Assembly: GCA_001784175.1 (NCBI GenBank)
Contig: MFPR01000042.1
Coordinates: 1-11,520 of the forward strand
Reading direction: 5' to 3'
DNA from: Candidatus Lindowbacteria bacterium RIFCSPLOWO2_12_FULL_62_27
GTDB lineage: Bacteria > Lindowbacteria > 2-12-FULL-62-27
DNA length: 11,520 nucleotides
The translations under genes and the position numbers were made by a program. Below the pieces are notes generated by a model that had not been told where the DNA came from, ran no database searches, and saw only the letters and a program-made list of their open reading frames with translations. This document shows, one piece after another, positions 869 to 11,520 of this stretch; within the stretch, counting starts at the first letter, position 1, and each line of letters opens with the position of its first letter.

Positions 869-886
869 GAATAGCGTGGGCTATTC
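869..886 (+). promoter_or_regulatory. Perfect 7-bp dyad, possible operator or leader hairpin
   Basis: GAATAGC (869-875) and GCTATTC (880-886) are perfect inverted repeats separated by GTGG. The 18-bp symmetric element sits between the putative promoter and the Shine-Dalgarno sequence of the first operon gene. This is where a repressor site or a small mRNA hairpin would control the operon. No T-run follows, so it is not a simple terminator. No regulator with a helix-turn-helix is seen in the window. Confidence 0.4.
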
Positions 887-893
887 ACAGCAT

Positions 894-898
894 GGAGG
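894..898 (+). promoter_or_regulatory. Ribosome binding site fixing the helicase start
   Basis: GGAGG ends 10 bases before the ATG at 909. This favours ATG 909 over the in-frame GTG at 876, which lies inside the dyad and has no good upstream Shine-Dalgarno sequence. Confidence 0.65.
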
Positions 899-908
899 AT
901 TTTATTTG

Positions 909-3692
909 ATGGCGACCTCTCAGACGCAACCCATCTCGACGATAGACCTTTCGCCCGCGCAAGAGCAAATCATCTCCCACCGCGGCGCGCCCCTCCAGAT
1001 CGTCGCGTGCGCGGGGTCGGGCAAGACCGAATCCATCTCGCGGCGGATTGCCTCTCTCATCGTCGAGGGCGCCGATCCCGCGTCCATCATCGCGTTCACA
1101 TTCACAGAAAAGGCGGCCGCCGAACTCAAACAGCGGGTTGTCAAACGCGTTGAGGAAAAAATGGGCCGCGAGTTTCTCGACCGGCTCGGACCCATGTTCG
1201 TCGGAACCATCCACGGCTACTGTTTCCGCCTGCTCCAGCTCAACGTCCCCCAATACGGCAACCACGACGTTCTCGACGAGCACCGGCATGCCGGTCTCCT
1301 GAGCCGCGAATACAAACGGCTGGGGCTGTCCAAACTCGGATCCAAACACTGGGAACCGATACGGGATTTTATCCGATCGGTTGACGTCATCAGCAACGAG
1401 GTGATTGATCCGGCCGCACTAGACGGGACGCCTCTGGGCGAATGCTACCGCGAGTATCGTGACACGCTCGACCGATACCATTTCCTGAGCTATGGCCTCC
1501 TGATCACCTGCGCAATCGAAGCGCTGGAGGATCCGGCCATCTACGAAAAAATCCACGGGCCGCTTCGGCATCTCATCGTCGACGAATACCAGGACATCAA
1601 CCCCGCGCAGGAACGGCTGATTGAACTTCTGGCCCGCGACCCCGTCCAGATATGCGTTGTCGGCGACGACGACCAGTCCATCTATCAGTGGCGCGGGTCG
1701 GACATTTCGAACATCCTGAAATTTCAAACCCGCAGATCGACGACACGGGCGATCGTACTGGCCGACAACCGCCGGTCCCGCCCGCAGATCGTCCGGACCG
1801 CCAACGCGTTCGCGTCGAGCATCCCCGGGCGATTGCCCAAACAGATGCAACCGTCCCGGCCCGCCGGCGAGAACGAAATTGTTGCGTGGTCAGCCGATAC
1901 TGCGGAGGACGAAGCCGACCAAATAGCCGAGACGATTGAGCGTATCCATGCGAAAGGTTACCGCTACCGCGACATCGCCGTGCTCTTTCGTTCCGTCCGC
2001 ACGTCTGCGCCGCCTCTCATCGACGCGTTTCGGGCCAGAAACATTCCCTTTGCCTGTGGCGGCCGCACGGGACTGTTTTTGCATCCCGAAATTTCGTATT
2101 TCGGAGAACTTTTTTCGTGGATCGGCGACGGCGACTGGCGGGACGCGCGGTTCGAACAAAAACGCAAGGCCGATATTGACCGCATTGTTGCCGGTCTCGA
2201 CGCCTGTTTCGGAAACGGCAAACCCATCCCGGGACTCAAAAAATATATGGAAGACTGGAAGACCTTCGTGCTCCGCACCCGACAGCCGGTCAGTCTCGTC
2301 GGGGATTTTTACAAGCTCCTCTATAAACTCGGCGCGGAGTCCATAAACCTCGGGACGCAGGAGGGCGCTGCGCGATTCGGCGCGTTCGCGCGGTTTTCCC
2401 AACTCCTCGCCGATTTCGAGCACGTCACCCGCCGCGGCCGGTACGACCAGGAAAACGGCCGGCGCGTATTTCGTCCGGGCCAGGATGGCGGCAAGTTCTA
2501 TTTCCAGCGGCTTGCCAATTATCTGATCCATTACGCATTCGCCGCCTACGAGGACTACGAGGGCGAACCGGCGTCCGACCTTGATGCCGTCTCCGTCATG
2601 ACGGTCCATCAGGCCAAAGGTCTTGAATGGCCGGTCGTGCTTATGCCGGCGCTGGTGAAGGGCCGCTTTCCGACGTCTCTATGCGGCCGCCCGCAGGAGT
2701 GGCTCCTGCCGCCCGGGATTTTCAGCGAACAAACCCGCAAACGCTACGAAGGAAGCGAGACCGAAGAGCGACGCCTGTTTTACGTCGCCCTCACCCGCGC
2801 GCGCGACTGCGTCTATCTGTCATACTTTCAGCGGAAAAAAAATAAATTCAAACCGTCGCCGTTACTGACGGAGGTTGCCGGCACAAACATCCTTGCGTTT
2901 GCCGTGCTTCCTCTCCCCGGCACGCCGGAGCCGGCCGGCCAGAAGGAAATCCCGCCGCTTCAAATTTCGTTCTCGCACCTGGCCGCATTCGAGGATTGCG
3001 GGCTTCGCTATCAGTTCGGGACCGTTTTCGGATTTCAGCAGGAATTGGCAGTCGAACTCGGCTACGGCCGCGCAATCCATCATGTCCTTCGCCGGGTGGC
3101 GGAGGAGGCGCAAAGCAAGGGCAGTATCCCAACCGCTCCGGAATTGAAGTCTCTGGTTGATGCTGAATTTTATCTGCCGTTTGCAAACACCCCGGCCTTC
3201 GAACAGATGTATCGCTCGGCCACGCGGATGACCCGGCTGTACGTCAACGATTATTCCGGCGATCTCATGCGGGTCTGGGCGGTCGAGCGCCCGTTCGAAC
3301 TGCACTTTGAGGACGGCATCGTGGCCGGCCGCGCCGACGTCATTCTGGATCGCGAAAACGACACGCCGGGCGCGCTGGCCATCGTCGACTACAAGGTCAC
3401 GCACGATCCCGAACGCGAGGAACGCTACCGCCGGCAACTGTCCATCTATACGGCCGCCGGCCGCGGCGAAGGCCTGCGGGTCGACGCCGCCTATCTGCAC
3501 GACTTGAGCGACAGCGCGCGCCGGCCGGTGGAGATCGGGCCGGAAGTCTTGAAAAAGACCGTGCAGGAGGTTTCCATCTCTGTGAAAGCCATTCGGCGGG
3601 GGAAATACGAGGCGAATCCAGAAGAGCAAAAATGCCGGGCGTGCGAATTTCTGACGATCTGCGCCAAACGCGCCTGCCGGGTGGGAGATTGA
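909..3692 (+). CDS. UvrD/PcrA-like SF1 helicase fused to PD-(D/E)XK nuclease with Fe-S-type cysteines
   Basis: This 927-residue protein carries the full SF1A helicase motif set: Walker A ACAGSGKT (residues 33-40, Lys39), TFTEKAAAEL, DEYQD (225-229), GDDDQSIYQWRG, TVHQAKGLEW (565-574) and YVALTRARD (625-633). The last 240 or so residues resemble the RecB/AddB/Cas4-type nuclease: Asp810 in GRADVIL, Asp827-Tyr-Lys829 as the (D/E)XK element, and QLSIY (843-847) as the QxxxY motif. Cys697 together with Cys909, Cys912 and Cys918 (C-x2-C-x5-C) matches the one-plus-three cysteine layout that holds a 4Fe-4S cluster in AddB and Cas4. Expected activity is ATP-driven 3'-5' unwinding coupled to DNA cleavage in the cytoplasm. 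It is first in the operon, 2 nt before the DUF1016 nuclease gene. A housekeeping AddA-like repair role is possible, but the position before restriction genes suggests a defence accessory. Confidence 0.88.
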   Translation: MATSQTQPISTIDLSPAQEQIISHRGAPLQIVACAGSGKTESISRRIASLIVEGADPASIIAFTFTEKAAAELKQRVVKRVEEKMGREFLDRLGPMFVGTIHGYCFRLLQLNVPQYGNHDVLDEHRHAGLLSREYKRLGLSKLGSKHWEPIRDFIRSVDVISNEVIDPAALDGTPLGECYREYRDTLDRYHFLSYGLLITCAIEALEDPAIYEKIHGPLRHLIVDEYQDINPAQERLIELLARDPVQICVVGDDDQSIYQWRGSDISNILKFQTRRSTTRAIVLADNRRSRPQIVRTANAFASSIPGRLPKQMQPSRPAGENEIVAWSADTAEDEADQIAETIERIHAKGYRYRDIAVLFRSVRTSAPPLIDAFRARNIPFACGGRTGLFLHPEISYFGELFSWIGDGDWRDARFEQKRKADIDRIVAGLDACFGNGKPIPGLKKYMEDWKTFVLRTRQPVSLVGDFYKLLYKLGAESINLGTQEGAARFGAFARFSQLLADFEHVTRRGRYDQENGRRVFRPGQDGGKFYFQRLANYLIHYAFAAYEDYEGEPASDLDAVSVMTVHQAKGLEWPVVLMPALVKGRFPTSLCGRPQEWLLPPGIFSEQTRKRYEGSETEERRLFYVALTRARDCVYLSYFQRKKNKFKPSPLLTEVAGTNILAFAVLPLPGTPEPAGQKEIPPLQISFSHLAAFEDCGLRYQFGTVFGFQQELAVELGYGRAIHHVLRRVAEEAQSKGSIPTAPELKSLVDAEFYLPFANTPAFEQMYRSATRMTRLYVNDYSGDLMRVWAVERPFELHFEDGIVAGRADVILDRENDTPGALAIVDYKVTHDPEREERYRRQLSIYTAAGRGEGLRVDAAYLHDLSDSARRPVEIGPEVLKKTVQEVSISVKAIRRGKYEANPEEQKCRACEFLTICAKRACRVGD

Positions 3693-3694
3693 TC

Positions 3695-4786
3695 ATGCTG
3701 AAACGAAAAACAAAGGCCTCATCCAAAGTGGTGCGCGGCCGGTCGGTTCCCCATACGCCGGTAGAAGCGTCGTTTGCCGAAGTGATCAGCCTTATCGAAT
3801 CCGCGCGCCGGCGGGCATATCAAGCCGTGAACACCGAACTCGTCGGCCTCTATTGGCAGGTCGGTGAATACATCAGCCGCAAGTTGGAATCTGCCACATG
3901 GGGTGAAGGGGTGGTCGAACAATTGGCCGATTACATCGCGCGCAACCGTCCAGACATGAGGGGATTCACCCGCGCCAGCCTCTTTAGAATGCGGCAGTTC
4001 TATGACACCTATTGCCGGAACAAAAAAGTCGCACCACTGGTGCGACAATTGCCATGGACCCACCATCTGATGATTCTCGGACGATGCAAGCGTGATGAAG
4101 AGCGCGAGTTCTACCTTCGTCTCGCACTACAGGAACGCTGGGGGAAAAGGGAACTCGAACGCCAGCTCAAAGGCGCCCTATTCGAACGCGCAATCTTGTC
4201 ACCACCAAAAGTCTCGCCGGTGGTGCGACAATTGCATCCCGCCGCTTTGACGGTCTTCAAAGACGCCTACCTGCTGGATTTTCTCGACCTGCCCTCCGGA
4301 CATTCCGAGGGCGATCTGCAACGCGGATTGGTGAGCGATCTGCGCCGGTTCCTCATCGAACTGGGCCGCGATTTCTGTTTTGTGGGCGAGGAATATCTCG
4401 TCCAGGTCGGCGGCCGGGATTTTCGGCTGGACCTGCTCTTCTATCATCGTGAACTGCAATGTCTCGTCGCGTTCGAACTCAAGATCGACGAGTTTCAGCC
4501 GGAGTATCTTGGGAAACTGGAATTTTACCTTGAGGCGCTCGACCGGGACGTGCGCAAACCGCATGAGCGTCCTTCCATCGGTGTGCTCCTCTGCGCAACC
4601 AAAGACGGCGAGGTCGTCGAGTATGCATTGAGCCGGTCACTCTCCCCCGCGCTCATCGCCGAGTACAAGACCCGGCTCCCGGACAAGAAACTGCTTCAGT
4701 CCAAACTCCACGAGTTCTACGCGCTGGCTGAATCTAATGTCTCGCGCGATGACACGCCTCCAAGGCCGAAGCGGCGACGTAAATGA
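3695..4786 (+). CDS. YhcG/DUF1016-family PD-(D/E)XK nuclease
   Basis: The 363-residue protein has the two-part layout of the YhcG (DUF1016) family. The N-terminal helical DNA-binding-like part runs from about residue 25 to 150 and includes SLIESARRRAYQAVN, LYWQVGEYIS and LPWTHHLMIL. The C-terminal nuclease domain covers about residues 185-345. Likely catalytic residues are Asp246 in FRLDLLFY and Glu261-Leu-Lys263 in AFELK; EFQPEYLGKLEFYLEALD follows as the usual conserved helix. ATG 3695 is chosen over the upstream in-frame ATG at 3632, which lies inside the helicase gene, because GGGAG at 3683-3687 sits 7 nt before it. Members of this family often lie inside type I and type III restriction operons, but their exact task is not established. 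Here it is translationally coupled to the helicase gene and precedes mod. Confidence 0.88.
   Translation: MLKRKTKASSKVVRGRSVPHTPVEASFAEVISLIESARRRAYQAVNTELVGLYWQVGEYISRKLESATWGEGVVEQLADYIARNRPDMRGFTRASLFRMRQFYDTYCRNKKVAPLVRQLPWTHHLMILGRCKRDEEREFYLRLALQERWGKRELERQLKGALFERAILSPPKVSPVVRQLHPAALTVFKDAYLLDFLDLPSGHSEGDLQRGLVSDLRRFLIELGRDFCFVGEEYLVQVGGRDFRLDLLFYHRELQCLVAFELKIDEFQPEYLGKLEFYLEALDRDVRKPHERPSIGVLLCATKDGEVVEYALSRSLSPALIAEYKTRLPDKKLLQSKLHEFYALAESNVSRDDTPPRPKRRRK
4028..4046 (+). repeat. Perfect 9-bp palindrome with 1-nt centre inside the DUF1016 gene
   Basis: GTCGCACCA-C-TGGTGCGAC is a perfect inverted repeat within codons for KVAPLVRQL. Its right arm, extended to TGGTGCGACAATTGC (4038-4052), recurs exactly and in the same codon phase at 4221-4235. 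Confidence 0.6.
4221..4235 (+). repeat. Second copy of a 15-bp direct repeat in the DUF1016 gene
   Basis: TGGTGCGACAATTGC matches 4038-4052 exactly, 183 bases (61 codons) downstream in the same frame. Both copies encode VRQL. Part of this copy can also pair: ACCACC at 4201-4206 with GGTGGT at 4219-4224. Confidence 0.6.
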
Positions 4787-4819: not shown

Positions 4820-6796
4820 ATGCCCAGACCTCGAAAATCTTCCGGTACCGGAGGCGTTAAAACCGCGGACTACCGACACACCGGGAAAAAGCGGACGAAT
4901 ATCCCGACGGCGAAAATGGCGGCCGAGGGGAAAATTCCGGCGGCGCCGAAGGCGCAATACCACTATAACCCGCACCTGCCGCCGGTTCTGCGGTTTGATC
5001 CGGCGGGCAAGGCCGACAAACTGCCCGACCTCATCGCCGCCGCCGGCCGGCGCGCGCTGACGGCGGACGAACAGAAACTTCTGGCCGAGGCGCTCCGCAA
5101 CCACCAGCCGTGGCTGGAGTGGGCGACGAAACGGGAACAGCACGACAAGGGATTTTTCGAAGTCGATCCGGTGGCGTTGCACATCCACGAACGCGTGAGC
5201 GCCCAGGCCATCGTCCGCGCGGCGACGCGCGAGGACGTCCAGCGCAATCTCTTCGCCGACCCCGAACAGCCGTATCAGGAAGCCGTGCAATTCTACAAAC
5301 ACGACGTCGACTGGGCCAACCGCCTCATCCTCGGCGATTCCCTGCAGGTCATGTCATCCCTCGCGCGCCGTGAAAATCTCGCGGGGAAGGTGCAGATGAT
5401 TTATATGGATCCGCCGTATGGGATTAAGTTTGGGAGCAATTTTCAAGCTGAAATAAACAGGCAAGAAATGAAAGAGAAAGACTCTGATCTAACTCGACAA
5501 CCAGAAATGGTCAAAGCATATCGCGATACATGGGTGTTCGGTATTCACTCATATTTGTCATATTTACGATCCAGACTGTTCTTATGTAAAGAACTGCTTT
5601 CAACGTCGGGCAGCATTTTTGTGCAAATTAGCGATGTTAATGTTCACGTTCTTCGAAGTATGTTGGACGAAGTCTTCGGATTTTCCAATTTTATTTCACA
5701 AATCTCTTTTGCCAAAACTAGTGGTTCTGCTGATAAATATCTTGCTACTATCGGAGATTTTCTACTCTGGTATGCAAAAGATAAAGAACAACTTAAATAT
5801 CGGCAATTACATTTCATCAAGACTGACAAAACATTGGCGCAACAATATCGATTCAGAATGCATTCGAATGGCTCGGTTGGTAGAGCCGGAGATCCAAAAA
5901 CCGAGACCGACGAGCAGTTATTATCCCGATTTATGCCAGACAATCTTACTGGTCAGGGTGAAAACGGAAATCTTGATGATCAAGAAGTTTGGGGAAAACG
6001 ATTTCGACCGACGACTGGTAGACACTGGTCGACCACTAATGAGGGAATACGCCGGCTGTTTCACTGCGAACGACTTTTTCTTAGTGAAGAACGTTTGGCA
6101 TGGCGTAAGTACGTTTCAGATTATCCAGTGTCTGCGTACGGTAATTTTTGGACTGATACGGCTCAAGGTGGCCGCGCGTTTGACAGAGTGTATGTTGTCC
6201 AAACAGCCGATAAAATCATCGAACGTTGTGTTCTCATGACCACCGATCCTGGTGACATCATCCTCGATCCCACCTGCGGTAGCGGGGCCACCGCATACGT
6301 TGCAGAGCAATGGGGCCGGCGCTGGATCACGATTGACACGAGCCGGGTCGCACTTTCAATAGCGCGCCAGAGACTTCTCACCGCGAAGTATGAGCATTAT
6401 AAAACTAAGGACGGGTCCGGTAATCCGGCCACTGGATTCAATTACAAGACCGTGCCGCACATCACGCTCAAAAGCATCGCCCAGAACACCAACCTCGATC
6501 CGGTCTTCGCCAAGCACGAGCCGGTTCTCAACGCGACGCTGGCGGCGTGCAACAAGGCGCTCGCTTCGGTTTCGGCCGACGCGCGGCGGAAACACTCAAG
6601 GCGAAATTGCAGGAAAAGCAGACCCGAGAGGGCAAGCGGTCGATCACCGACGCGGACCGGCGGCGGTGGGAATTGCCGGAGAAGAAATTTGAGCATTGGA
6701 CGGTTCCATTCGATACCGATCCAGACTGGCCCAAGGCACTGCAGACGGCGGTCGCCGAATACCGCAAGGCGTGGCGGGCGAAAATGGACGAGGTGA
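4820..6796 (+). CDS. Type III-like adenine DNA methyltransferase (Mod), catalytic part, frameshifted near 6590
   Basis: The frame gives 658 residues, of which about 591 belong to the real protein; the rest, rich in Arg and Ser, is read out of frame after the lesion. Motif IV is DPPYG (residues 197-201), the target-base pocket of N6-adenine methyltransferases. Motif I, the SAM-binding DPTCGSGAT, is at 483-491. IV before I defines the beta class, as in type III Mod proteins. Residues 1-190 form an N-terminal extension, including QPWLEWATKRE and HIHERVSAQ, and the region between the motifs should hold target recognition. The ATG at 4820 begins MPRPRKSSG; no Shine-Dalgarno sequence lies at normal distance (GGAG at 4799-4802 is 17 nt away), and ATG 4916 is an alternative. 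Codons from about 5420 to 6240 are much more AT-rich than the flanks. Family assignment is firm; activity is uncertain because of the frameshift. Confidence 0.85.
   Translation: MPRPRKSSGTGGVKTADYRHTGKKRTNIPTAKMAAEGKIPAAPKAQYHYNPHLPPVLRFDPAGKADKLPDLIAAAGRRALTADEQKLLAEALRNHQPWLEWATKREQHDKGFFEVDPVALHIHERVSAQAIVRAATREDVQRNLFADPEQPYQEAVQFYKHDVDWANRLILGDSLQVMSSLARRENLAGKVQMIYMDPPYGIKFGSNFQAEINRQEMKEKDSDLTRQPEMVKAYRDTWVFGIHSYLSYLRSRLFLCKELLSTSGSIFVQISDVNVHVLRSMLDEVFGFSNFISQISFAKTSGSADKYLATIGDFLLWYAKDKEQLKYRQLHFIKTDKTLAQQYRFRMHSNGSVGRAGDPKTETDEQLLSRFMPDNLTGQGENGNLDDQEVWGKRFRPTTGRHWSTTNEGIRRLFHCERLFLSEERLAWRKYVSDYPVSAYGNFWTDTAQGGRAFDRVYVVQTADKIIERCVLMTTDPGDIILDPTCGSGATAYVAEQWGRRWITIDTSRVALSIARQRLLTAKYEHYKTKDGSGNPATGFNYKTVPHITLKSIAQNTNLDPVFAKHEPVLNATLAACNKALASVSADARRKHSRRNCRKSRPERASGRSPTRTGGGGNCRRRNLSIGRFHSIPIQTGPRHCRRRSPNTARRGGRKWTR
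5420..6240. other. AT-rich block inside mod, likely exchanged target-recognition region
   Basis: Base composition drops abruptly within the methyltransferase gene. Positions 5701-5760 contain 21 G+C of 60 (35%), whereas 5221-5280 contain 40 of 60 (67%). The block starts just after motif IV (DPPYG, 5408-5422) and ends just before motif I (6266-6292), so it spans the segment that in beta-class enzymes carries specificity. The frame stays open and continues to encode expected methyltransferase sequence such as GSIFVQISD and WYAKDKEQLKYR. The edges are approximate. Confidence 0.7.
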
Positions 6797-7794
6797 ACGC
6801 CTGCATTTCGGCCAACGCCGAGCAGGAGGAATTGGTCGACCGACCGGAAGTTTCGAAAGGCGTGCTTCGCGTCAGCGGGCCGTTCACGGTCGAGGGCGTG
6901 ATGCCGGAGGAGTTGAGTTTGGGCGAAAAGGGTCTTTACGATCCAACGCCCAACGAATTCGAAGACGATGCTGGCGGGCCGGTGGAGCAGATGAAAAATA
7001 TTCATGCCTATCTCACGCGCATGGTCCAGTGCCTGCGGTCGGACGGCGTGACGTTCATGAACAACCAGCGAAAAAAATTCGCGCGGATCGAGCCGCTGTT
7101 TGAGTCCGGCACCGGAAGCATCATTCATGCTGAAGGCGTCTGGGAAGAGCAGGACGGGGCCGGGCCCAACACGATCGCCGTCGGATTCGGGCCGCAGTAC
7201 GGGCCGGTGACGGCACAGCAGGTCGAGGAACTTGTGCGGGCGAGCAAACGATATGACGAACTTGTGATCGCCGGATTCAGTTTCGACGCCGCCGCCACCA
7301 ACGCCATTCAAGAGGCCGCCCATCCCAAACTTCGCATCCACCAGGCCTACATCCGTCCCGACATCAACCCCGCGATGGACGGCCTCCTCAAAGACACGCC
7401 CAACAGCCAGCTCTTCACCGTATTCGGCCAGCCCGACGTCGAAGTCAAAAAGAACAAGGACGCGGATTTTGTCTGCACGCTCAAAGGCGTCGACATCTAC
7501 GACCCTCTCACCAGCGCCATTCGTTCTACCGGCGCAGAAAAAGTGGCGGCGTGGTTTTTGGACACGGACTATGACGGCCGATGTTTCTGCGTCACGCAAG
7601 CCTTCTTCCCCGACCAGGACGCATGGGAAAAAATCGCGAAGGCCCTCGGATCGAGCGCCGACACCGAAGCGTTCGATGCGTTCAAGGGCACGACCTCCCT
7701 GCCGTTTCCGAAAGGCAAGCACAATCGAATCGCCGTCAAGGTGATCGACCCGCGCGGGAATGAAGTCATGTCGATTCAGACGCTCAAGGACTGA
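6547..7794 (+). CDS. C-terminal part of the same Mod methyltransferase, -1 frame after the frameshift
   Basis: This frame is open from 6424 (after TAA 6421-6423) to the TGA at 7792-7794. The part that looks like real protein begins near 6590 with TLKAKLQEKQ, directly continuing ASVSADARRK from the upstream frame. Joining the two by restoring one base in the AAA at 6590-6592 gives a continuous Mod of about 991 residues. The tail includes KFEHWTVPFDTDPDW, ELVDRPEV, RVSGPFTVEG and KVAAWFLDTDYDG, which I recognise as the C-terminal extension of large Mod proteins in this subfamily; no separate catalytic motif is visible. It could only be made alone from GTG 6547 or ATG 6784, neither with a convincing ribosome binding site. 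It ends 1 nt before the res start, as expected for coupled mod-res genes. The lesion may be a real mutation or a sequencing or assembly error. Confidence 0.75.
   Translation: MQQGARFGFGRRAAETLKAKLQEKQTREGKRSITDADRRRWELPEKKFEHWTVPFDTDPDWPKALQTAVAEYRKAWRAKMDEVNACISANAEQEELVDRPEVSKGVLRVSGPFTVEGVMPEELSLGEKGLYDPTPNEFEDDAGGPVEQMKNIHAYLTRMVQCLRSDGVTFMNNQRKKFARIEPLFESGTGSIIHAEGVWEEQDGAGPNTIAVGFGPQYGPVTAQQVEELVRASKRYDELVIAGFSFDAAATNAIQEAAHPKLRIHQAYIRPDINPAMDGLLKDTPNSQLFTVFGQPDVEVKKNKDADFVCTLKGVDIYDPLTSAIRSTGAEKVAAWFLDTDYDGRCFCVTQAFFPDQDAWEKIAKALGSSADTEAFDAFKGTTSLPFPKGKHNRIAVKVIDPRGNEVMSIQTLKD
7786..7790 (+). promoter_or_regulatory. Ribosome binding site fixing the res start
   Basis: AAGGA lies 5 nt before ATG 7796, within the last codons of mod. 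It supports 7796 over the in-frame upstream ATG at 7760. Confidence 0.55.
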
Positions 7795-7795
7795 T

Positions 7796-10700
7796 ATGGC
7801 AAAAGGCGTCAAATCTCGCGGCCTGCCGACGCACATGGATGAGCCGCCGGCGGATTGGGTTCCAACGCAGGCGGTCGATGAACCGGTCATCAACAAACCT
7901 TATGAAGAACCGGCCAAACACTGGACGTACAAGGATGGCGTCCCGGACTTAAAATCTGAACGGCGGCCGGCGAGTTACTACTACAAGACGCGCAAAACCG
8001 GCGCGGCGCAGGAAGATCTTTTTGCCGAGGAAGAACGCGCGCTGTTGCCGCTGGTGAACCGGCTCCGCAAGGACGTGAAACGATGGCGCGCGTCGGCCTA
8101 TCGGGGCGCGTCGCCGGTGAGCAAGGATCTTCTGGCGTACTGGTGGAGAGCAGACCGGTCGCGGCGGCTGTTTTTCTGCCAGCTTGAAGCGGTCGAGACG
8201 TTCATCTATCTGCTGGAGTTGGCGATTCCGGGCCGACTGCCGAGCACCGGATTTAAATCATTTGAAGTCGACGCTGGAAATCTGGATCGACTGCTCAAGG
8301 GCGTGCGCCCGGATTTTCCGGAAATTGCGCCGGATTATTGTCCCCGGCTGGTCGACATTCCCGCCGATGCCGGCCTTCAGGGTTTGCGTCGTCTTGGATG
8401 CAAGATGGCGACAGGAAGCGGCAAGACGATTGTGATGGCGATGACGATCGCGTGGGCATTCTGCAACCGCGGCCGAAATCCGGCCACTCTGCATTTTCCC
8501 AATGGCGTTCTTGTCTGCGCGCCGAATCTGACGGTCAAAGAGCGCCTGCAGGTGCTCCGGCCGGATCATCCTGAAAATTATTACGACGCGTTCGATCTCG
8601 TGCCGGCCAAATACCGGGAACTGATGGGCGTGGGCCGGGTGCTGATCACGAACTGGCACGTCTTCGCGCCGAAAAGCCCGAACGTCGAGGGCGAAAAGAG
8701 TTACAAGATCGTGAACAAGGGCGAGGAGACTGCGGAGGCGTTCGCGAAGGATCGTCTCGGGGAACTTGCCGCGCGAACGCCCATTCTCGTGCTGAACGAC
8801 GAGGGCCATCACTGCTGGCGGCCGAACAACAATTCGGCGTCAAAGGCCGAGGAGGATTTGACAAAGGAGGAGAAGGCGGAACTGGAGGAGGATGCCGAAG
8901 AAGCCCGAGTGTGGCTGGCCGGTCTTGACCGGATCAACAATTCGGGTCTGGCGGGCGGGAAAAATCCGGGGATTCTTGCGGCGTTGGATCTTTCAGCCAC
9001 GCCGTTTTATCTATCCAACAGCGGCTATCCGGAAGGTGATCCGTTCCCATGGCTGGTCAGCGATTTCGGGTTGGTGGATGCCATCGAGTGCGGCATCGTC
9101 AAAATCCCGCGTATGCCGGTCCGGGATGAAACGGAATCGAAAGACGAAGTCGGCCGGCCTGATCCGAAATATTTTCACCTGTGGCGGCATATCAATGACG
9201 GCCTTCGGCCGGTGGACCGCGCGGCGAATCGGCGGCCAAAACCGGAGGCGGTGTATCGCGAGGCCGAAGGCGCGCTTCTGATGCTGGCGGGCCAGTGGAA
9301 AAAACGGTTTGAAGAGATTCAGGGCGCAAGTCCGGGGGAGAAGATCATTCCACCGGTGTTGATTATCGTTTGCGACAACACCGAGGTGGCCGACATTTTT
9401 TATCAGAGAATCAGCGGCGAGCGGGAAGAGGAGGTGTTGGGTGCGGACGGCAAGAAAGTGGAGAAACGGAAAATATATGAAGCCGGCAAAATTCTTGCGG
9501 AGTTTTCGAACACCGAGAATTTCCGGCCCACGGTGCGGATCGACACCAAACTTCTGAAAAAAATTGAGACCGAGGAAGGCGAAACCAAAGACGAGGCGGC
9601 GCAGGCCTTGCGGGCAATCATCAACACCGTCGGCAAACGCGGCATGCCCGGCGAGCAAATCCGGTGCGTCGTGTCCGTGGGAATGCTCACCGAAGGGTGG
9701 GATGCGACGAATGTGACGCACATTCTCGGCGTGCGGGCGTTTCAGAGTCAACTTTTGTGCGAGCAGGTAGTCGGTCGGGGCCTTCGGCGGATGGACTACA
9801 CCGCGCTGGATCCGGAAGGCCGGCTGGTGGCCGAGCATGTGGATGTCTATGGGATCCCATTCTCGCTGATTCCGTTCAAGGGCAAGCCGAAAGATATAGA
9901 GCGGCCCGACCCCGTCTATCATCACGTATTTGCGGTGCCGGAACGCGCGTCGCTCGAGATTCGCCTGCCGGTGGTCGAGAGTTACACGTATGATCTGAAG
10001 GGCAGCGGGATTTCGTGCGATGTGGACAATCTCGACGACCTGGTGGTGGACGATGAGCCGACGAAAGTCTATCTGGCCGTAACGCGCGGCTATCAGGATG
10101 ACCCCTCCTCCACGCCGTCGGGAGATTTCATCCAGCAAACGCGAGAGAATTTTTACGCGACGGTACGATTTCAGCAAGTGGTGTTTCGGCTGGCGCAGAT
10201 GATCGTGGACGATTTGATCGCCGGCGGCCGGGGCGCGGGCGTTGAGGCGCTTAAAAAGTCGCTTTTAGCCCGGCACCAGGTTTTTCCGGATGTTCTACGG
10301 ATCGTGCAGGAATACATCAACAAGAAGGTCCGGTTCGTCAAAGGCGTGGACCCGAGGGAGCTGGCGCTGGAAAAATATTCTCAACTTCTGCGAGAGCGCG
10401 TTCGGGCTGGAATTCTGCCGGCGGCGGCCAGCGCGGAGGCGCCGCTTTTGCCGGTTGTGAACTCGTACAAGCCCTTCGCCTCGACGACGGACGTGAATTT
10501 CCGGACGACCCGGCCAGTAGTGAAACTGGAAAAGAGCCATCTCAATCTCGCGGTGATCCACAGCGATTGGGAGAAGGACGCGATCGCCATTCTGGAGGAC
10601 AGCGACGACGTCGAGTTTTTCACACCGAACGACCAGCATGTCGGATTGGTCGTCCCCTACGATTATCTGGGCGGCCAGCACCACTACGAGCCGGATTTCA

Positions 10701-11443
10701 TCGTGCGCCTGCGCGGCGGCAAAATCCTCCATCTCATTCTGGAGATCAAAGGGCGGGCCGGGGAAATCCACGATGAGGACCGCGTGCACGCGAAAAACGC
10801 GGCGGCGAAAAAATGGGTGGCCGCGGTCAACAACGCCGGCCGATACGACCGCTGGAATTTTGAGATCTGCAAGGAACTCGCGAACCTGCGCGTGACGTTG
10901 AAGCGCTGCGCTGACGAGGGCGAGCCGGCGGCGGCCAAGGTTGTGCCATTCCGGTTCGTGACCCCGCGCGCCGGCGAGCATTTCAAGACGTGCGTGCCGC
11001 TGGTGAGTCTGCGGGCGGCGGCCTCCAACTTCAGTAATGAACAATTCAGCTGGGATCAGATGGGAGAATGGGCGGACGAGTGGGTGTCGTTCGAACCAAA
11101 GACGCGCTTTGAGGATGGAATGTTTGTCGCCCGAATTCGCGGCGACTCGATGGAACCGACGATCCCGGCGTCTGCCTACTGTCTATTCCGCAGGCCTCGG
11201 CCCGGGTCGCGGCAGGGGCGGATCGTGTTTGTGATGCACTCGGGCGTGAGCGACCCATTCACGGGCGGCCAGTACACGGTGAAAGAATATTCGAGCGAAA
11301 AAGCCGTGGACCCCGAGACGGACTGGCATCACACGCGGATCACCCTGAAACCGCACAACCGAAAATACGACCCGATCGTTCTGACGCCGGAGGCCGAGGA
11401 TGAGGTGCGGGTGATCGCGGAGTGGGTGGAGGTTGTGGGTTAA
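7796..11443 (+). CDS. Type III-like restriction subunit (Res): SF2 helicase, PD-(D/E)XK nuclease and C-terminal LexA-like S24 domain
   Basis: The protein has 1215 residues. The SF2 translocase motifs are TGSGKT (206-211, Lys210), DEGHH (335-339), SATP (400-403), TEGWDAT (632-638) and QVVGRGLRR (657-665). The nuclease domain follows, with PDF at 966-968 and EIK at 983-985, the PD-x15-EXK pattern of Res enzymes. After it, residues from about 1066 to 1215 match the LexA/UmuD S24 fold: CVPLVSLRAAAS, then RGDSMEPTIP with Ser1118, QGRIVFV, YTVKEY with Lys1163, LKPHNRKYDPIVL and a closing IAEWVEVV strand. The Ser-Lys dyad is present, but the usual Ala-Gly cleavage pair reads Ala1076-Ser1077. There is no helix-turn-helix. 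Res should use ATP to translocate and cut DNA lacking Mod methylation. The gene is coupled to mod (1-nt gap). The S24 part adds about 150 residues to an ordinary Res and may regulate it; that is inference. Confidence 0.88.
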   Translation: MAKGVKSRGLPTHMDEPPADWVPTQAVDEPVINKPYEEPAKHWTYKDGVPDLKSERRPASYYYKTRKTGAAQEDLFAEEERALLPLVNRLRKDVKRWRASAYRGASPVSKDLLAYWWRADRSRRLFFCQLEAVETFIYLLELAIPGRLPSTGFKSFEVDAGNLDRLLKGVRPDFPEIAPDYCPRLVDIPADAGLQGLRRLGCKMATGSGKTIVMAMTIAWAFCNRGRNPATLHFPNGVLVCAPNLTVKERLQVLRPDHPENYYDAFDLVPAKYRELMGVGRVLITNWHVFAPKSPNVEGEKSYKIVNKGEETAEAFAKDRLGELAARTPILVLNDEGHHCWRPNNNSASKAEEDLTKEEKAELEEDAEEARVWLAGLDRINNSGLAGGKNPGILAALDLSATPFYLSNSGYPEGDPFPWLVSDFGLVDAIECGIVKIPRMPVRDETESKDEVGRPDPKYFHLWRHINDGLRPVDRAANRRPKPEAVYREAEGALLMLAGQWKKRFEEIQGASPGEKIIPPVLIIVCDNTEVADIFYQRISGEREEEVLGADGKKVEKRKIYEAGKILAEFSNTENFRPTVRIDTKLLKKIETEEGETKDEAAQALRAIINTVGKRGMPGEQIRCVVSVGMLTEGWDATNVTHILGVRAFQSQLLCEQVVGRGLRRMDYTALDPEGRLVAEHVDVYGIPFSLIPFKGKPKDIERPDPVYHHVFAVPERASLEIRLPVVESYTYDLKGSGISCDVDNLDDLVVDDEPTKVYLAVTRGYQDDPSSTPSGDFIQQTRENFYATVRFQQVVFRLAQMIVDDLIAGGRGAGVEALKKSLLARHQVFPDVLRIVQEYINKKVRFVKGVDPRELALEKYSQLLRERVRAGILPAAASAEAPLLPVVNSYKPFASTTDVNFRTTRPVVKLEKSHLNLAVIHSDWEKDAIAILEDSDDVEFFTPNDQHVGLVVPYDYLGGQHHYEPDFIVRLRGGKILHLILEIKGRAGEIHDEDRVHAKNAAAKKWVAAVNNAGRYDRWNFEICKELANLRVTLKRCADEGEPAAAKVVPFRFVTPRAGEHFKTCVPLVSLRAAASNFSNEQFSWDQMGEWADEWVSFEPKTRFEDGMFVARIRGDSMEPTIPASAYCLFRRPRPGSRQGRIVFVMHSGVSDPFTGGQYTVKEYSSEKAVDPETDWHHTRITLKPHNRKYDPIVLTPEAEDEVRVIAEWVEVVG

Positions 11444-11448
11444 GAAGC

Positions 11449-11520
11449 ATGCCCGCTAAGATAATTTCACGACGTTTGGAAGCGGGAGAGGGATTTCCAG
11501 CGTCTGCGGGCTTTGCAGAA
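11449..11520 (+). CDS. Start of a further operon gene, cut by the window edge
   Basis: ATG 11449 lies 5 nt after the res stop and opens a frame that runs to the end of the window, giving 24 residues beginning MPAKIISRRL and ending ASAGFAE. GAGG at 11397-11402 is too far upstream to serve as its ribosome binding site, although GTGGAGG at 11425-11431 lies 17 nt away and AAGAAG at 11442-11447 is closer and weak. The short gap suggests co-transcription with res. Too little is visible to name a family. Confidence 0.45.
   Translation, partial: MPAKIISRRLEAGEGFPASAGFAE

Follow-up and report, generated by a model that had tools for sequence, protein, structure and literature searches.

The question raised by this locus is what a peptidase domain of the LexA/UmuD type is doing at the end of a restriction enzyme. 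The window, by which we mean the whole stretch of 11,520 nucleotides analysed here, carries near its end a gene for a type III-like restriction subunit (Res), and the first-pass annotation had placed an S24 domain at 10991-11440, behind the nuclease motif of this protein. The gene and the motifs of its motor and nuclease are the following:

7796..11443, + strand: res, BPTD_3080-family type III-like restriction subunit (open frame from 7760; match to NCBIfam NF046055)
8414..8428, + strand: Walker A GSGKT of the Res SF2 motor (sequence motif)
8798..8809, + strand: DEGH box of the Res SF2 motor (sequence motif)
10685..10750, + strand: PD-(D/E)xK nuclease motif YEPDF...LEIKG of Res (sequence motif; alpha/beta fold predicted)

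The open frame 7760-11443 on the + strand encodes 1,227 amino acids and the residue numbers given below are those of this frame. The first-pass annotation had counted from the ATG at 7796, which lies 12 residues downstream of the frame start, and its Ser1118 and Lys1163 are Ser1130 and Lys1175 here. Judged by its sequence, Res is a BPTD_3080-family type III-like restriction subunit: the NCBIfam profile NF046055 scores 877 bits (cut-off 800) over residues 204-1049, and the gene adjoins a type III-like Mod. The Pfam ResIII match at residues 207-353 lies slightly below its cut-off (22.2 bits against 22.5). The motor motifs GSGKT, DEGH, SAT and QVVGRGLRR are intact. The PD-x15-EIK motif that had been read upstream of the S24 domain is indeed present (YEPDF at residue 976, LEIKG at 994), and it is also kept in the other Res-S24 proteins. 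The family model, with 970 residues, has no S24 domain; like the matches to plasmid and viral members, it stops at the nuclease, whereas the Res of the window adds 150-165 S24 residues.

The partner gene of res is not intact in this assembly:

4820..7794, + strand: mod, type III-like DNA methyltransferase, frameshifted near 6577-6595 (PADLOC MTase_III PDLC03632 on frames 4820-6796 and 6547-7794)

The gene consists of two overlapping frames. The Mods of three relatives (L033, L035 and L014) align through both halves, and that of L033 is a single frame of 967 amino acids across the break point. The restriction-modification copy of the window may therefore be inactive, unless the frameshift is an assembly error. 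Directly upstream of mod there is a gene for a DUF1016/YhcG-type nuclease (3632-4786; PADLOC PDC-S02, E 1e-132), and 876-3692 encodes a protein of 938 amino acids in which a UvrD-like helicase is joined to a PDDEXK_1 nuclease; together with the restriction-modification genes this looks like a defence island. On the other side, the contig ends 77 nt past the res stop codon, inside a repeat. Two other contigs of this genome, C20 and C43, have the same 73-81 bp (window 11440-11520) at their ends, and a multi-copy element seems to begin directly after the res stop.

Regarding the C-terminal domain itself, the features are these:

10925..10936, + strand: low-confidence linker from the Res nuclease helix to the S24 module (AlphaFold2 of residues 931-1227)
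10949..11440, + strand: C-terminal S24 (LexA/UmuD-type) peptidase module of Res (PF00717, AlphaFold2 plus structure search, 61-member alignment)
11147..11149, + strand: catalytic Ser of GDSMEP (invariant, 61/61)
11282..11284, + strand: catalytic Lys of TVKEY (invariant, 61/61)

The Pfam profile PF00717 (cut-off 23.3 bits) matches residues 1099-1221, that is, nt 11054-11422, with E 5.7e-9 and 36.1 bits when the whole of Res is the query and with E 7.5e-11 and 42.2 bits when its C-terminal 177 amino acids are used alone. A search of the PDB with the sequence of the module was borderline (LexA at E ~0.01), and the comparison of structures decided the matter. AlphaFold2 modelled the module from 59 natural homologues with a pLDDT of 90.5 and a pTM of 0.86, and the PDB entries that matched this model best in Foldseek (E 1e-5) were, without exception, LexA, lambda CI and UmuD'. 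The VIA-align Z scores were 12.1 for LexA (121-127 residues aligned), 11.8 for lambda CI and 11.1 for UmuD'. Kinship with signal peptidases instead of LexA was weaker, with Z ~7.5 against 12.1. The predicted fold is that of LexA and includes the S24 beta fold; on both sequence and model, then, the Res C-terminal domain is an S24 domain of the LexA type. This confirms the domain that the first-pass annotation had proposed, although its start lies rather earlier than 10991, near nt 10949.

In a second model, of residues 931-1227 (pLDDT 83.1, pTM 0.60), the alpha/beta nuclease is followed by a helix, from which a short linker of low confidence leads to the S24 domain; residues 126-129 of this model are its sole run of three or more residues with pLDDT below 50. 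The Pfam scan of Res gave no match to an HTH domain, and in this respect Res does not qualify as a LexA-type repressor.

Both catalytic residues are present in 61 of the 61 modules of the family alignment, the one in the window included. Thus neither of the two outcomes named beforehand as arguing against an active peptidase, a model without the S24 beta fold or homologues without the Ser and Lys, was seen. Res with the same C-terminal S24 domain was found in five genomes besides that of the window, which rules out that the fusion is an assembly chimera; two of these relatives, G210 and G213 (split over two contigs), come from a separate genome set and are 60-66% identical to the protein of the window. 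Taken with the motor and nuclease motifs, the fold and the dyad bear out the earlier view of an S24 domain with a Ser-Lys dyad attached to a DNA-translocating nuclease.

The module is not confined to Res. We first met it on other proteins when the genome of the window and one family relative were searched with the Res protein. A scan of 84,980 species genomes, with a four-sequence alignment as the query and short peptide patterns, then yielded 80 loci. We count L033-L096 as members of the family, strong or partial, and L098-L112 as LexA or phage-type repressors of the ordinary sort; frequencies obtained with such short patterns are lower bounds. The relatives are spread over 14 named phyla and several unnamed bins, and none was found in viral contigs by a search with degenerate patterns only. 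Wherever a strong member has a complete frame, its last ~165 residues are the module, and the order of effector, cleavage site and S24 domain is the same as in LexA and CI.

We assigned the hosts to types by clustering the protein parts N-terminal to the module. The largest group was HsdR of type I systems (24), followed by Schlafen-group-3 helicases (13) and by MrfA/DruE-like helicases (5, namely 4 of the MrfA type (MZB) and L055, plus one in the genome of the window). Res accounted for 4 hosts, the window's counted, and single-chain type ISP enzymes for another 4. There were also 2 other SF2 helicases, L089 (with a TnsA-like nuclease) and L062, and 4 small proteins, two of them with a DUF3037 match. 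No HTH domain is included in the 25 Pfam families that were listed for 50 module-bearing relatives. The first-pass annotation had described the S24 domain on Res; it is present there, but it is not special to Res, as the same subfamily occurs on at least seven other protein types. It is a shared portable module and not a one-off fusion.

The small proteins (L059, L075, L092 and L093) have ~260-295 amino acids and a DUF3037-like N-terminus, come from Acidobacteriota (Bryobacterales-type) and are the only hosts other than DNA motors. An Omnitrophota genome (JADGBR01) carries the module on two enzymes in separate contigs, the Schlafen-group-3 helicase L078 and the helicase with a TnsA-like nuclease, L089.

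In the genome of the window three enzymes carry the module: Res, an HsdR on contig C4, with HsdS and an N6-methylase in its neighbourhood, and a DruE-like helicase on contig C16 (1,994 amino acids, DruE3 match with E 2e-98; L118:5459-11440). An AriA/OLD-like AAA ATPase gene lies near the HsdR (L119:13617-14801). The DruE-like helicase is preceded by a TPR protein of 1,437 amino acids with weak UvrD_C matches, and a Druantia-like locus is possible there.

The phylogeny of the modules shows how they are distributed among the enzymes. The four Res modules, from the genome of the window and three other phyla, form one clade with support 100/100; therefore the Res-S24 fusion must be an old one that moves as a whole. 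The HsdR, DruE-like and ISP modules, on the other hand, are interleaved, and the tree needs 8 host changes for HsdR and 6 for the DruE-like enzymes, 6 and 4 of which are forced by starred branches. Furthermore, the modules of two HsdR proteins (L071 and L072) are 88-90% identical to those of two ISP enzymes (L077 and L080), and outside the module BLAST found no similarity between these proteins (E above 0.1). Therefore, the module has been exchanged between unrelated enzymes.

Where could such a module cut? The following candidate was located in the window:

11021..11026, + strand: putative self-cleavage bond Ala1088-Ser1089 (Ala1076-Ser1077 counted from 7796), LRAAA-SNF (UmuD-like spacing; inferred)

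Shortly after an invariant Pro, the module family keeps a segment LxAxA(G/T/S)xF. There are eight residues from this Pro to the putative P1 residue, equal to the distance from Pro16 to Cys24 in the PDB sequence of UmuD (PLFSDLVQC-G, Cys24-Gly25). Where UmuD has its P1 residue, 60 of the 61 modules have Ala and one has Cys; the putative P1' residue is Gly (28), Thr (19), Ser (13) or Asp (1). Strict Ala-Gly cleavage has been reported for the known LexA-like proteins (PMC7101444). About half of the module family, the window included, departs from this rule because its P1' is not Gly; Res has Ala-Ser where Ala-Gly or Cys-Gly would be expected of S24 peptidases. Compared with LexA, UmuD and lambda CI (MEROPS S24, PF00717), the module has the common fold, the Ser-Lys dyad, the position C-terminal to the effector and the Pro-to-P1 spacing of UmuD. 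It differs in its N-terminal partner, a DNA motor-nuclease instead of an HTH domain or a short arm, in the Ser or Thr at P1' in half of the members and in a longer loop from Ser to Lys (45 against 37 residues). It also differs in the structure of the site, since both AlphaFold2 models give the segment as a short helix (model residues 21-28) and not as the known loop of LexA.

The conservation of this segment could reflect helix packing, and the helical prediction would suit a module that serves for docking or dimerisation, with a LexA-like surface that binds RecA filaments or forms dimers and so recruits or pairs the motors, the peptidase being incidental. LexA-type domains do dimerise and bind RecA filaments, and 8gms, 8trg and 8gmt were among the structure matches. 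Nevertheless, few positions of the module are as well conserved as the Ser, the Lys and the Ala/Cys at P1, which docking alone would not explain, and we regard this reading as unlikely. The intact dyad is also what would be expected of a protease that acts in trans and cuts some other protein once the motor engages DNA (the partner Mod/HsdM, a host substrate or a phage repressor, to name examples), and the C-terminal domains of UmuD and LexA are capable of trans action in vitro. We judge this highly improbable, because every module keeps a cleavage-like segment of its own and no partner gene was seen that is common to the HsdR, Res, DruE-like, ISP and Schlafen hosts.

The reading that we tentatively favour, at somewhat less than an even chance, is that unrelated DNA-translocating defence enzymes have acquired a portable self-cleaving switch of the LexA/UmuD type, represented in Res by its C-terminal domain, which is probably triggered by RecA-ssDNA and turns the nuclease off. 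The cleavage, its trigger and its outcome we infer as follows. Res or a related motor would break host DNA, to give one example, and RecA-ssDNA would form. This is probably the trigger, by analogy, because the closest structural relatives of the module undergo RecA-ssDNA-stimulated self-cleavage. The module would then cut its own linker after the conserved Ala in LxAxA-(G/S/T)xF. The cut would sever the module, and -AAA or -AVA would become the new end of the enzyme. Such an ssrA-like, Ala-rich C-terminus may act as a degron, and ClpXP would degrade the enzyme. The net outcome would be self-limiting restriction, in other words restriction alleviation encoded in cis. The genome of the window encodes RecA and ClpX, as well as LexA (L114) and a UmuD-like protein adjoining a polymerase (L113).

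The same kind of cleavage activates UmuD, and the opposite outcome has to be weighed: the S24 module would keep the enzyme inactive until RecA-ssDNA formed in the course of a phage infection caused the cleavage that frees the active nuclease. The low-confidence linker predicted between nuclease and module would suit this arming, and DruE, one of the host types, is reported to engage ssDNA-containing intermediates (PMC13192584). Nevertheless, there are complete family relatives without the module, and plasmid and viral Res matches end near residue 1034-1059; therefore no inhibitor is needed in general. Moreover, the Ala-rich end that would remain resembles a degron. Arming thus seems improbable to us. 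The evidence leans to an off switch, because Ala at the UmuD-equivalent site would leave an Ala-Ala-Ala or Ala-Val-Ala end of the degron type.

When LexA-like proteins cleave themselves, C-degrons become accessible to Clp proteases, and a latent ClpX degron type has been described for these proteins (PMC7101444, PMC5742171). In IrvR and HdiR, self-cleavage beside the S24 domain exposes the C-degron of the N-terminal part (PMC7101444, PMC5742171); these are transcription regulators, whereas the predicted degradation substrate here is a nuclease. IrvR, a LexA-like S24 protein, cleaves without RecA when exposing its ClpXP degron (PMC7101444), and the module could likewise be a timer, whose slow constitutive self-cleavage shortens the half-life of the nuclease independently of RecA. 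A Thr or Ser at P1' is unlike the SOS-type LexA sites and would agree with it. However, nearly all the host enzymes are DNA motors, which points to the sensing of DNA damage, and instability could be had more simply from a degron that is exposed all the time; we give such a timer little chance.

Restriction by type I enzymes offers a precedent for the off switch. In E. coli, alleviation is the destruction of translocating HsdR by ClpXP (PMC4231737), and the degron of HsdR has been looked for without success (PMC4231737). As in EcoKI (PMC4231737, PMC12707154), restriction would cease under the favoured switch because the motor subunit is destroyed once host DNA is in danger; control of EcoKI is in trans, whereas the module would place a latent degron and self-cleavage within the enzyme itself. 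It is because of the LexA-like C-degrons and of this destruction of HsdR that we favour an off switch limiting damage to the host chromosome. Plasmid-induced restriction alleviation in E. coli is, on the other hand, independent of LexA cleavage (PMC11109961), and therefore restriction can be under proteolytic control without any part for SOS. We also looked for a match between the -AVA/-AAA end and the host tmRNA tag. The ssrA tag of the window's genome ends in ALAA, and -LAA is the end of every tag that could be read clearly, whichever of the two ends the module would leave. The points that we count against a self-cleaving off switch are thus the P1' other than Gly (Ser in the window), the helical site, the alleviation independent of LexA and the absence of a match between tag and module.

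More generally, the module occurs with its catalytic residues intact, and its hosts are, with few exceptions, defence enzymes that pull DNA. This suggests that bacterial immunity has a portable switch, probably an off switch, that is built into the enzymes. A wider form of this, possible but doubtful, is a transferable self-inactivation cassette, in which one S24 subfamily would couple RecA-ssDNA to self-cleavage and Clp degradation and guard any motor-nuclease against autoimmunity; it would cover type I, type III-like, type ISP, DruE-like and Schlafen-helicase enzymes. The parts are of known kinds; for their union as a shared module on many defence enzymes we found no earlier description. The open-access literature that was searched does not mention restriction enzymes with S24 domains, and such an absence is no proof.

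How cells protect their chromosome from their own restriction motors is largely unexplained outside EcoKI. If the switch is real, one peptidase module would be a common answer for many unrelated defence enzymes, and what it predicts at the molecular level is clear: a single bond, two catalytic residues and a single trigger. The SOS signal would, moreover, be linked to immune nucleases directly, not via transcription, and the enzymes of this class would be recognisable by their domain content alone.
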